From NCBI GenBank assembly GCA_015488775.1, contig WFNF01000107.1, positions 1 through 37,427 of the forward strand: 37,427 bases of DNA. Direction: 5' to 3'. The notes under the pieces are model-generated. The model had not been told where the DNA came from, searched no databases, and saw only the letters and a program-made list of their open reading frames with translations. The stretch's first letter is position 1. Each line of letters opens with the position of its first letter. Shown piece by piece: positions 17,958-24,439 of the stretch. The DNA is from Helicobacteraceae bacterium (lineage in GTDB: Bacteria; Campylobacterota; Campylobacteria; Campylobacterales; Sulfurimonadaceae). Made by a program: the position numbers and the translations under genes.

Positions 17958-19199
17958 TTATAAATCCTTACTTATAGTTTTAAAACTACTTCTTTTATTA
18001 AAATCTTCACTCATACAATTATCTCTAATCATAGATAATTGTTTATACATTTTATGCTCCGTATCTTTAGATCTACTTAAAAGATCATCTAATAAACACC
18101 CATATGCTCTTAACTCTATTTTTTCATATCTCTCATCATCTTCATAAAAACTTGCTGCACCAAAGTCACCTAAGTAACAATGACTATTTTCATTTATAAG
18201 TATGTTGTGAGCATAAAGATCTCCATGCATTAGATTATGTTTATGAAAATGTTCCCCAACACTTGATATCGCTTTTGCAATTTTATAAATGCTCTCAATA
18301 TCGAAAGTATCTTCAAAGGTATCTCTTGTGCAAGTATCAAAATCTGGTGGAAAACCAAGATTTGTATAGTTTTTAGGTATCAACTCTAAAGCAAGAGCTA
18401 GTTTTCCACTAAATGAGCCTAAAACATCTATAAGATGAGGATGTTTCTCTAACTCTAAGTAAGCAGCAATCTCATCACTAGCGTAACCATCGCTTGTTAC
18501 ATCACCCTTATACAACTTAACAGCTATATCTTTTTTATCCATTTTGGCTCTATATATCTCGCCACTAGCACCCTGCCCTAAAAGCTCAAAAAGTTCTATA
18601 TCATTAAAATCATAACTATTTTTATAAGATTTTATCTTAGGTGAACATCTGTTACCACTTAGTGCTAACCATGCAAGTTTTGGAAGAGTAAGCAACCAAG
18701 GTGGAACCTTCTCTAACTCATTAGCTGAGAGTCTTAAAAGCTCTAAATTTTTACACTTAGACATACTTTTTGGAAGAGTTTTTATCTTATTTCCAGCTAA
18801 GGCACATTTTTGAAGCTTAGTTAGCTTACCCATAGATTCTGGTAAAATCTCTATTTTATTATCTGTCAAAATCAACCAAGATATACTAAGTGGTAAGATA
18901 TCTTCATCAAAATTTTTTATCTCATTTGCTTTGAATCCTAACATATATAAATTTTGTAAATTTTTAAGCTCAGATGGAACTTTTTTAAAGTTGTTATTAG
19001 ATAAAAATAAAATTTTAAGGTTTTTAAGTTTATCTATATCTTCTGGCAACTCACTCAAAAAGTTGTTACTCAAATCAAGTATCTCTAAAGTATCTGCCAA
19101 TTCATAGAGCTTTTTTGGAAACTCTTTTATATTTTCACTAAGTTTTACTCTTGTATAGCCTAGAAGTTTATTTCTATTTAGTTCGTATAAAGTTTGCAA
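17958..19199 (-). CDS. Leucine-rich-repeat protein with Ser/Thr kinase-like domain
   Basis: A 413-aa cytoplasmic protein without signal or membrane segment. Residues 35-185 carry about six LRRs of 22-23 residues with the pattern LExLDLSNNxLxELPExIxKLxN. Residues 203-413 are kinase-like: Gly loop GQGASG (208-213), Lys228 in AVKLY, Glu243, catalytic loop HGDLYAHN (Asp327, Asn332) and DFG (345-347). It is a non-RD kinase, HGD rather than HRD. The activation segment is very short, and I see no APE motif. ATP-binding and catalytic residues are all present, so activity is possible. It forms a two-gene operon with YwbE. Confidence 0.85.
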   Translation of the reverse strand: MQTLYELNRNKLLGYTRVKLSENIKEFPKKLYELADTLEILDLSNNFLSELPEDIDKLKNLKILFLSNNNFKKVPSELKNLQNLYMLGFKANEIKNFDEDILPLSISWLILTDNKIEILPESMGKLTKLQKCALAGNKIKTLPKSMSKCKNLELLRLSANELEKVPPWLLTLPKLAWLALSGNRCSPKIKSYKNSYDFNDIELFELLGQGASGEIYRAKMDKKDIAVKLYKGDVTSDGYASDEIAAYLELEKHPHLIDVLGSFSGKLALALELIPKNYTNLGFPPDFDTCTRDTFEDTFDIESIYKIAKAISSVGEHFHKHNLMHGDLYAHNILINENSHCYLGDFGAASFYEDDERYEKIELRAYGCLLDDLLSRSKDTEHKMYKQLSMIRDNCMSEDFNKRSSFKTISKDL

Positions 19200-21605: not shown

Positions 21606-21778
21606 TTAAACCCAAATTATGCAGTAGAAAACTTGAAGATTGCATCTATCATTGTACACAAGGCACATTCATAAAATTATTGACCTACCAATAAGGTAGG
21701 CACAACGATTTTCTAAACGCCCCTTATGCACAAGCATAGACGCTACTTGTTGTTCCCTACTGCATAATTTGGGTTAAA
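21606..21778 (-). mobile_element. Miniature inverted-repeat element, copy 1 (163 bp plus 5-bp target duplications)
   Basis: The element spans 21611-21773. Its ends are perfect 17-bp terminal inverted repeats, CCCAAATTATGCAGTAG and reverse complement (21611-21627, 21757-21773). Both ends are flanked by TTAAA (21606-21610 and 21774-21778), a clean target duplication. The interior has small hairpins (CCTACC/GGTAGG; TATGC/GCATA) and no reading frame, so it is non-autonomous. The orientation is set by the end shared with copy 2 at 24369. The right end of the element encodes the final residues and TAG stop of Tex. The transposase family is not identifiable here. Confidence 0.85.
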
Positions 21779-23865
21779 CTAAGAGATATTTTACCCTTTT
21801 CCTGATCAATAGATATAATTTCAACTTGTGGTAAATATTGGTTTATGCTTAGCACCTCTAAAGGGTGTTTAATCCTTTTTTCACTCATTTTACTTATATG
21901 TATCATCCCATCATTTTTAAGACCAATATCTACAAAAGCACCAAAATCTGCAATATTTCTTACAACTCCACTAACAAAAGAACCCTCTTTTAAGTTTTTA
22001 ATATCTAAAACATCATCTTTAAAAGGGATGCTTGGAAGATTTTCTCTTGGGTCAAAACCAGGCTTTAAAAGTTCATCTCTTATATCTTTTAAAGTCTCTT
22101 CACCACAATTAAATTTTTGAGCTAAAGTTTTAATGTCTAAACTTTTTAAATTTGATATATCTAATTTTTTTGCTATGTTGTATGATTCAGGATGAACCCC
22201 TGTGTTGTCAAGATAATTTTTAGGATTTTTAATTCTAATAAAACCTGCCGCTTGCTCATAAGCTTTAGCACCTACGCCCTTAACTTTTAAAAGCTCACTT
22301 TTAGCTGTAAAATCTCCATTTTGTTTTTTATAATCCAAAATATTTTGTGCTAATTTTGTACTTAAACCAGCTATATGAGTTAACAACGATACAGATGCAG
22401 AGTTAATATCTACTCCAACTCTATTTACTAAGTCTCCTGTTACATCATCTAGCTTTTTATTTAAAAGTTTTTGATCAACATCGTGTTGGTATTGACCAAT
22501 ACCTAAAGATTTTGGATCTATCTTTACTAAAGTAGCAAGAGGATCACGAAGTCTTGCTGCAATAGATATAGCACCTCTTATGGTAACATCAAGTTTAGGA
22601 TACTCATCGCTAGCTAAAGCAGAAGCAGAGTAAACGGATGCACCAGCTTCACTAACTATGGTGTATTCTAACCTAAAACCATCCTCTTTATTTAGTTGTG
22701 CAAAAAACTCACTAGTTTCACGTGAAGCTGTTCCATTTCCAATAGCTGCTGCATCGATTTTATACTTTTTTACTAAGGCTAGAACAGTTTTTTTAGAGTT
22801 CTCATAGTCATTTTTAGGAGCAGTTGGGTAGATAACAGCTGAATCTAAGTAGTTTCCATTTTTATCTAAAACAGCTAACTTACAACCTGTTCTAAAAGCT
22901 GGATCTACACCAAGTATAACCCTACCTATAACAGGTGGGCTTATGAGAAGTTGTGTAAGATTTTTACCAAAAACATCTATGGCACTTTTGTCTGAACGCT
23001 CTTTTAAAAAAGAGTGTATCTCACGCTCTAATGATGGTAAAAGCAAGCGTTTAAAACCATCTTTATATGAGTCTAGAAGTAGTTTTGATGAACTAGAAGC
23101 ATACTTTGGTATCTTATATGTTTCTATATTGTTAAACACTCTATCTTGATCTATGCTTATCTTTACACCAAGTTGTTTCTCTTTTACTGCGCGCATCAAT
23201 GCTAAGTATCTATGTGATGGAATATAAGCAACTTTTTCACTTAGATTTGCAAGACTAAGATAAACACCTTTTTGATCAAAGTTTTTTGTTTTTTTAGCCT
23301 CTATAACACCATGATACAACATAGTGTTTCTTAATGCATCTCTCTCTTTTGGATTTTCACTATAACGCTCTGCTAATATATCTTGAGCACCTTTTATAGC
23401 TTCATCTACACTTTTAACCTCACCCTTTATAAAACTTTTTGCGTAAGTTTTAAACTCATCTAAACCCATTTTTGCACTTTGGAGAGTGTTAGTAAGTGGT
23501 GTAAGTCCTTTACTTGCAGCCAAAGTAGCTCTAGTGTTTTTTTTCTCTTTATAAGGCCTGTAAATATCCTCTAATATATTTAAGCTCTCAGCCTCATCAA
23601 TACTTTTTTCTAAAGATAAGCTAAGAGTTGCTCTTTGAGATATTAGACGTTTTATTTCCTCTTTACGCTCTAACAAACGCTTTTGTTTGTTATAGGTCTC
23701 TTCAAAAACTCTAAGATCCTCATCACTTGCACCACCAGTTAACTCTTTTCTATAACGAGCTATAAAAGGGATAGTAGAACCCTCATCTAAAAGTTTTAAT
23801 ATATTTGAGATATGTTCAGATTGTAAGGATGTATTTTGAGTAAGTATTTTTATAAGTTTTTGCAT
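21757..23865 (-). CDS. tex: Transcription accessory protein Tex (YhgF), 3' end replaced by a mobile element
   Basis: A 702-aa Tex-family nucleic-acid-binding protein. It has the N-terminal helical region (STIPFIARYRKELTGGASDEDLR), a YqgF/RNase H-like domain starting VILGVDPAFRTGCKLAVLD near residue 318, the HhH region (VNSASVSLLTHIAGL-type, here INSASVSLLTHIAGLSTKLAQNI) and a C-terminal S1 RNA-binding domain at about 630-697. The last residues, TQIMQ and the stop, are encoded by the inverted repeat of a miniature element, so the native tail after the S1 domain is lost. All domains remain, so the protein is probably functional. Confidence 0.92.
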   Translation of the reverse strand: MQKLIKILTQNTSLQSEHISNILKLLDEGSTIPFIARYRKELTGGASDEDLRVFEETYNKQKRLLERKEEIKRLISQRATLSLSLEKSIDEAESLNILEDIYRPYKEKKNTRATLAASKGLTPLTNTLQSAKMGLDEFKTYAKSFIKGEVKSVDEAIKGAQDILAERYSENPKERDALRNTMLYHGVIEAKKTKNFDQKGVYLSLANLSEKVAYIPSHRYLALMRAVKEKQLGVKISIDQDRVFNNIETYKIPKYASSSSKLLLDSYKDGFKRLLLPSLEREIHSFLKERSDKSAIDVFGKNLTQLLISPPVIGRVILGVDPAFRTGCKLAVLDKNGNYLDSAVIYPTAPKNDYENSKKTVLALVKKYKIDAAAIGNGTASRETSEFFAQLNKEDGFRLEYTIVSEAGASVYSASALASDEYPKLDVTIRGAISIAARLRDPLATLVKIDPKSLGIGQYQHDVDQKLLNKKLDDVTGDLVNRVGVDINSASVSLLTHIAGLSTKLAQNILDYKKQNGDFTAKSELLKVKGVGAKAYEQAAGFIRIKNPKNYLDNTGVHPESYNIAKKLDISNLKSLDIKTLAQKFNCGEETLKDIRDELLKPGFDPRENLPSIPFKDDVLDIKNLKEGSFVSGVVRNIADFGAFVDIGLKNDGMIHISKMSEKRIKHPLEVLSINQYLPQVEIISIDQEKGKISLSLTQIMQ

Positions 23866-24005
23866 AGTTTTCTTTTTATTTTATTTTATTTTAGAGGTGC
23901 CCTTTACTAAACTTCACTTAGTTTAGAGTTATTTCAATGACATAAAATTTTTACAAACTTGTTTAATTTCTAAAGTTTAGGATTTTATTCCATAGCTAGG
24001 GCTTT
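23866..24005. other. Spacer between tex and the small-membrane-protein operon
   Basis: No gene is seen. It contains a hairpin, CTAAAC/GTTTAG around TTCACTTA at 23908-23926, and at 23910-23934 a 25-nt segment that matches 24451-24475 (the 3' end of the unknown protein gene) with two mismatches. Confidence 0.5.
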
Positions 24006-24095
24006 TTAGCCTTTTATCATCTCATAACTACTATAAACAATAGCAAATAAAGCTATACTCAAAGCAATACCTAAAGCCAACGCTTCTATACTCAT
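24006..24095 (-). CDS. 29-aa single-pass small membrane protein
   Basis: ATG at 24095-24093 to TAA at 24008-24006. The product begins MSIEALALGIALSIALFAIV and ends YSSYEMIKG: one hydrophobic helix (about residues 5-21) and a short polar tail. A clear ribosome site, AAAGGA, lies 7 nt upstream. The ATG overlaps the TGA of the preceding 77-aa gene in an ATGA junction, so it is translationally coupled. The product is unknown; small transmembrane proteins of this kind often modulate larger membrane complexes. Confidence 0.65.
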   Translation of the reverse strand: MSIEALALGIALSIALFAIVYSSYEMIKG

Positions 24096-24325
24096 GTTAA
24101 ATCCTTTAATTCATTAATTTTTTTATGCATATGTTTAGCCAATAACATAAATATAATTGATAAAATAACTATTGTAATAGTTCCAAGCCAAAATATAAAG
24201 TCAATCATACCACTTTGATACAATTTAACAGTTCCACTTATATCACCCATAAGTAATGCCGTAATAAGCGCTAAATAAACTTTCAATGCACCAATATATT
24301 CTTTTACTTGGTCTATTTTTGCCAT
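24092..24325 (-). CDS. 77-aa membrane protein
   Basis: Two hydrophobic helices, at about residues 14-32 and 41-63, with charged ends (MAKIDQVKEYIGALKV at the start and KHMHKKINELKDLT at the end). No family is recognised. It is followed by the 29-aa membrane protein in an ATGA overlap, suggesting the two act together. Upstream lies the second miniature element (24364-24439). Confidence 0.7.
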   Translation of the reverse strand: MAKIDQVKEYIGALKVYLALITALLMGDISGTVKLYQSGMIDFIFWLGTITIVILSIIFMLLAKHMHKKINELKDLT

Positions 24326-24363
24326 AAATAGATTATATCATAAATTACTATTTTGCAAAAAAG

Positions 24364-24439
24364 TTTAACCCAAATTATGTAGTAGGGAACAACAAGCATA
24401 AATGCTTTCTTAAGTTTTTACTGCATAATTTAGGTTTAA
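24364..24439 (+). mobile_element. Miniature inverted-repeat element, copy 2 (66 bp plus target duplications)
   Basis: The element spans 24369-24434. Its first 28 nt match the minus-strand start of copy 1 with one mismatch (CCCAAATTATGTAGTAGGGA...), and its last about 28 nt match the other end of copy 1. The ends form a 16-bp inverted repeat with two mismatches. Flanks are TTTAA (24364-24368 and 24435-24439). It looks like an internally deleted form of copy 1. The right TTTAA includes the stop codon of the 248-aa gene. Confidence 0.8.

Follow-up and report, generated by a model that had tools for sequence, protein, structure and literature searches.

The element described here is a single imperfect hairpin over its full length, and this fold is kept by compensatory base changes and by wobble pairing on one strand across many families of Campylobacterales. 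Because its ends and target are shared with IS1380 elements, it is, as judged from sequence, almost certainly a miniature inverted-repeat element (MITE) moved in trans by an IS1380-family transposase. The explanation that fits best overall, and that we consider probable, is an IS1380-type MITE whose conserved one-strand hairpin is kept for spreading.

The window (the whole stretch of DNA analyzed, 37,427 nucleotides) belongs, as contig 107, to a draft assembly of 2.70 Mb (170 contigs, 95% complete) of a Helicobacteraceae bacterium. Both of the elements that an earlier note had recognized there are present (Table 1). In the orientation of the element, the copy 1 duplication is TTTAA, and the 28-nt arms of this copy are 89% complementary if the duplication is counted in. 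Both ends of copy 2 are common to copy 1, in agreement with the claim that it arose from the full-length element by internal deletion. When the flanks of copy 1 are joined, the tex product would have 698 aa and would end four residues sooner; the length of the reading frame adjoining copy 2 is unchanged by the insertion. The window also encodes, at 17958-19199 on the minus strand, a 413-aa protein with leucine-rich repeats and a eukaryote-like protein kinase domain.

Table 1. Coordinates of the two window copies, the adjoining gene, and the purD-linked copies of related genomes
Feature	Position	Strand	Remarks
Copy 1, left target duplication	21606..21610		TTAAA on +
MITE copy 1, full-length	21611..21773	-	163 bp; strong hairpin folds from minus strand
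Copy 1, terminal inverted repeat	21611..21632		CCCAAATTATGCAGTAG...; matches IS1380-type ends; lower hairpin base pairs
Copy 1, hairpin core	21637..21747	-	Tandem-mismatch motif AUGCUU / AAUGAU, nearly invariant
Copy 1, other terminal inverted repeat	21752..21773		
Copy 1, right target duplication	21774..21778		TTAAA on +
tex gene	21757..23865	-	702 aa; last residues QIMQ and stop codon supplied by copy 1
Copy 2, left target duplication	24364..24368		TTTAA
Copy 2, internally deleted derivative	24369..24434	+	66 bp; hairpin orientation +
Copy 2, right target duplication	24435..24439		TTTAA
purD-linked copies (genomes G006, G050)	L326 383-541; L329 342-499		Strongly diverged, fold retained

The search of the host's own genome with copy 1 that the note had proposed revealed many further dispersed copies. 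The genome holds about 40, with 28 full-length (150-163 bp), about ten shortened, and six truncated. With copy 1 as the query, the 28 long copies are 87-100% identical, with E values down to 1e-81. The element is ∼72% alike to its own reverse complement. No conserved reading frame was seen in the ∼162-bp element among the 28 full-length copies, and the idea that the hairpin encodes a conserved small protein was rejected since the frames, read by eye, are broken in L149, L308, and other relatives.

Of 37 own-genome copies, 26 lie between exact 5-bp duplications, whereas 7.0 are expected from randomly re-paired flanks and the maximum among 5000 such shuffles was 16. Overall, 43 of 72 copies carry exact duplications (12.5 by shuffling), which are TTAAA/TTTAA in 30 cases, ATAAT/ATTAT in six, TTCAA/TTGAA in five, and ATTAA/TTAAT in two. 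Thus the 5-bp duplications are genuine, and TTTAA flanks both window copies as had been noted, but the target is not fixed: its consensus is WTNAW, with T2 and A4 invariant and TTTAA/TTAAA as the commonest form. The many scattered copies, with ends that match and target duplications that are genuine, give good support to the proposal of true transposition by a trans-acting transposase. On contig 15 of the same genome, near position 2534 of locus L072, lies another small hairpin repeat (CCCAAATTATGCATTCCCAATGAGGACATTGGGAACGAG) whose start resembles the MITE end.

Among 200 genomes from the host's family, 56 carry the ends seen in the MITE. In two of these genomes, contig ends carry a terminal inverted repeat (TIR) and then a reading frame beginning MGELKIQYSDKKVTPFGGM, which in one of the two is broken by a MITE copy. 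Its peptide matches annotated IS1380 transposases on Aliarcobacter plasmids, and transposase profile scores (NF033539, E 1e-68; PF13701, E 9e-44) assign the Aliarcobacter enzyme to the IS1380 family. Aliarcobacter cibarius plasmid pACIB has two complete 1470-bp IS1380 copies and a third with an IS5-family element inside it. Their ends (CCCGCATTATGCAATAG / CTATTGCATAATCTGGG) are TIRs shared with the MITE, and their 5-bp duplications are ATAAT, ATTAA, and ATAAA. The IS1380 family, of which ISEcp1 is a distant member, is therefore alike in its inverted repeats (CCCRNATTATGCARTAG) and its AT-rich 5-bp duplications, as the note had guessed; it differs in carrying an enzyme gene. The MITE interior has no match beyond the inverted repeats to the pACIB IS or to other IS1380 loci. 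The element is what would be expected of a MITE of this family: short, present in many copies, devoid of a transposase gene, and flanked by a 5-bp duplication, where 4-5 bp are expected.

No IS1380 transposase was matched at E <= 1e-5 in the host draft assembly (170 contigs, 95% complete). Fragments of close relatives of the enzyme are present in other carrier genomes, and the host's helper may be lost, unassembled, or too diverged to match. A helper encoded by the genome that carries the MITE is usual but not a requirement. In genome G227, a full-length MITE (L182, 1299-1460) lies inside an IS1380 transposase gene, probably that of its helper, and its flanks (ATTAT/ATAAA) no longer match. At four loci of G164 and G187 (L161, L164, L184, and L185), the TIR leads into an AT-rich stretch that these loci have in common (TAAATAAGTACTGAT / TAAATTAGTGCTGAT) where the contig ends; the autonomous IS may have its other end here. 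One such TIR and AT-rich contig end is followed by an apparent IS3-type element. Other candidates for the autonomous element were rejected. A search of four carrier genomes with PF01609 and PF13701 gave PF01609 matches in the own genome and G019, none flanked by MITE ends; single-ended TIR matches in the own genome have no transposase inside; and two TIRs 2.2 kb apart in G171 have flanks that do not match.

The MITE was also compared with other known groups. Tn3-derived TIMEs have ∼38-bp ends starting GGGG, and membership was rejected because the MITE ends start CCCAAATTATG and are conserved over ∼17 bp. Correia and ERIC elements have a TA target duplication and end sequences of their own, which the 5-bp WTNAW duplication and CCC ends of the MITE do not fit; the ends and targets of Correia/NEMIS, ERIC, and Coxiella QMITE2 all differ from those described here. 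The piggyBac transposons share CCC-type ends and TTAA-like targets with the MITE, but their duplication is the 4-bp TTAA and they are eukaryotic. IS1380 has served as an outgroup for piggyBac trees (PMC10813416).

The minus strand of copy 1 folds into one hairpin along its whole length, with a free energy of -89.3 kcal/mol compared to -35.9 for shuffled sequences (z -13.5). Two internal hairpins had been proposed for this copy; they are replaced by this end-to-end structure. Among 52 copies oriented by sequence, the energies range from -58 to -100 for the hairpin strand and from about -28 to -70 for the opposite strand. In the alignment of these copies, 97.5% of pair cells are kept, whereas pairing falls to 41-49% when the partner is slid by one to three columns. 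Compensatory changes on both sides are found at 33 of 57 pairs, compared to 14.4 in shuffles, and none of 500 shuffles reaches this number. Related sequences can exceed shuffles, and the safer measures are the counts of double-change pairs and the pair types, both of which lie above all 500 shuffles.

Wobble pairing is strongly biased to one strand. Each copy was aligned to its own reverse complement under a scheme that is blind to wobble, in that it makes no difference between G.T and A.C. On the hairpin strand, 527 pairs are then G.U and 43 are A.C. The ratio is 342:49 in family copies outside the covariance model, a few weak matches included. In eight other families, with orientation set by the motif ATGCTT/AATGAT, it is 570:104, a count that takes in two of the three poor loci L355-L357, whose coordinates were mis-set. 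The motif is a conserved tandem mismatch inside the stem. Changes between GC and GU and between AU and GU are both present in the alignment. For L384, L385, and L386 of G466, orientation by the motif is ambiguous and two fold better on the reverse strand; these loci are possibly a subfamily that has lost the motif.

Within the family, 34 of 228 genomes (9 of 18 genera) have the element according to the covariance model; for Campylobacterales as a whole, the number is 43 of 399 genomes, from 17 of 88 genera and at least nine families. Its length is nearly constant throughout the order, at about 159-167 bp. Some relatives have other ends, for example CCCAAATCTCGAAATAG or CCCGGATTTTGCATTAG, where the 5-bp duplications are AT-rich as well, and the hairpin core of copy 1 is conserved in order-wide relatives whose ends differ. 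A second IS1380 type with CCCAAATCTCGAAATAG ends was considered and is unproven, since only lone ends were found near transposases. In two species of one genus, the hairpin occupies the same site, with the purD RNA motif (RF01069) on one side and the purD gene on the other, and pairing is kept there through 15 of 22 pairs that changed between the species. No Rfam match at E <= 1 was found in the window region, and among elements of five diverse relatives only the neighboring purD motif was matched. The literature examined contains no report of this MITE family, and within it we know of no comparable report that combines strand-specific wobble with order-wide compensatory change.

The pattern of mutations bears on where selection acts. 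In the 28 full-length own-genome copies, private substitutions (26 changes, one genome) convert a pair to a mismatch nine times, with 10.9 expected by random placement; five produce A.C (4.4 expected) and seven produce G.U (7.0 expected). Of the substitutions common to three or more of these copies, six lead to G.U, one to A.C, one to a mismatch, and one from G.U to a Watson–Crick pair. Single-copy changes mostly arose after insertion, and those in at least three copies would have been made in source elements. When small clusters from other genomes are pooled with the own genome, pairs are broken by 62 of 186 private changes and by 18 of 87 shared ones, a difference in the same sense as in the own genome but less clear. 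The pooled private changes break fewer pairs than random placement predicts, but they include lineage differences, and the result regarding selection on individual copies is mixed.

Short copies and gene orientation were also compared. Copies of 90 bp that share one deletion junction are each nearer to a different full-length subfamily than to one another, and thus look like repeated deletions in place rather than a spreading short form. Copies of 46 bp occur in another genome. Inserted copies would decay and lose their hairpin tops at short direct repeats, and the 66-bp copy of the window most likely arose in this way. Orientation can be judged only at tandem gene pairs. In the own genome, copies at such pairs are antisense to genes in 12 cases and sense in two. 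Outside it, the hairpin strand is antisense in 14 and sense in 19, so there is no general link to gene direction, and an orientation bias was rejected.

In the mechanism that we propose, an IS1380 enzyme would move the MITE and the folded strand would help either movement or survival of the element. Whether the fold is kept since the folded strand helps the element spread, and not for a benefit that each copy gives its host, is in our judgment evenly balanced. A need for the fold in spreading is suggested because private changes in the own genome hit the stem randomly, shared ones mostly keep pairs, and short copies look deleted in place. Against this role, the purD-site element keeps its fold in two species, as if selection had long acted on it where it stands; the pooled private changes break fewer pairs than expected at random; and own-genome copies at tandem gene pairs are mostly antisense. 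We tentatively suggest that one folded strand, of RNA or of single-stranded DNA, may belong to the machinery by which a DDE-type IS transposes or propagates, recognized via the conserved mismatch motif. For the form of this strand, our first choice over folded single-stranded DNA is RNA, a transcript of the hairpin strand, although we would call this possible and not probable. It is preferred because G.U is a classic RNA signature and because both GC-GU and AU-GU changes occur; the presence of both kinds also means that strand-specific deamination alone is no explanation.

That folded single-stranded DNA is the functional form, with the strand folding in replication, conjugation, or transformation, seems unlikely, though it is a rival to be taken seriously. 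The fold would unite both inverted repeats as a substrate, like integron attC sites or IS200/IS605 ends, which are imperfect palindromes with conserved unpaired bases and in which one folded strand matters. The MITE is likewise an imperfect palindrome with conserved unpaired bases. Its stem reaches the terminal bases and contains conserved mismatches, strand specificity fits this form equally well, and outside the own genome the orientation of the element does not depend on that of genes. However, IS1380 enzymes are DDE transposases and are thought to act on double-stranded DNA, and G.T in DNA is weaker than G.U in RNA. Unlike attC and IS200/IS605, the MITE has no link to an integrase or HUH enzyme and has 5-bp duplications and IS1380 ends. 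Membership among attC sites was rejected since these have the core site GTTRRRY and its partner at their ends, and MITE flanks such as ATAAT and ATTAT give no core site.

Less likely again is an RNA useful to the host, acting in mRNA processing or stability or as a small RNA, and spread by the MITE as proposed for Correia/NEMIS and ERIC. These elements and Coxiella QMITE2 are likewise short and gene-less, with transcripts that would form stable stem–loops, and some of this type affect mRNA processing (PMC10969869). Correia-bearing mRNAs, for example, are cleaved by RNase III (PMC10969869). The great stability and conservation of the hairpins and their retention at the purD locus in two species would agree with such a role. 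It is difficult to reconcile, however, with own-genome private mutations that hit the stem as if at random, with inconsistent orientation to genes, and with the patchy set of carrier genomes.

An ordinary palindromic MITE with an unselected fold, the arms kept alike by template-switch (quasipalindrome) correction, is improbable. Bacterial inverted repeats can be corrected toward perfection, and long palindromes are common among MITEs. Transcripts of other MITEs are reported to have long stable stems (PMC10969869). But such correction gives no reason why G.U should outnumber A.C ∼12-fold on one strand when copies lie both ways, and the AUGCUU/AAUGAU mismatches remain uncorrected. An old structured RNA gene, or a repeat family spread by recombination and not mobile, would suit the purD site common to two species but is hardly credible given target duplications in 43 of 72 copies (12.5 when shuffled), IS1380 ends, and the insertion of one copy into the gene of an IS1380 transposase.

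An IS1380 MITE as such is a known kind of element, whereas the order-wide, strand-specific hairpin is new here. A covariance model is now available for a repeat family that is absent from Rfam, and a candidate helper transposase is named. MITE interiors are usually taken as leftover filler. The present one is conserved pair by pair on one strand throughout the order, whereas mutations acquired after insertion, as seen in one genome, look free of constraint, and the interior of this kind of MITE appears to have some function. The testable question is whether a folded RNA or DNA strand is involved in DDE transposition or contributes to the success of MITEs. If true, a role for the folded strand would make the "passive" interior of a MITE a working nucleic-acid device.
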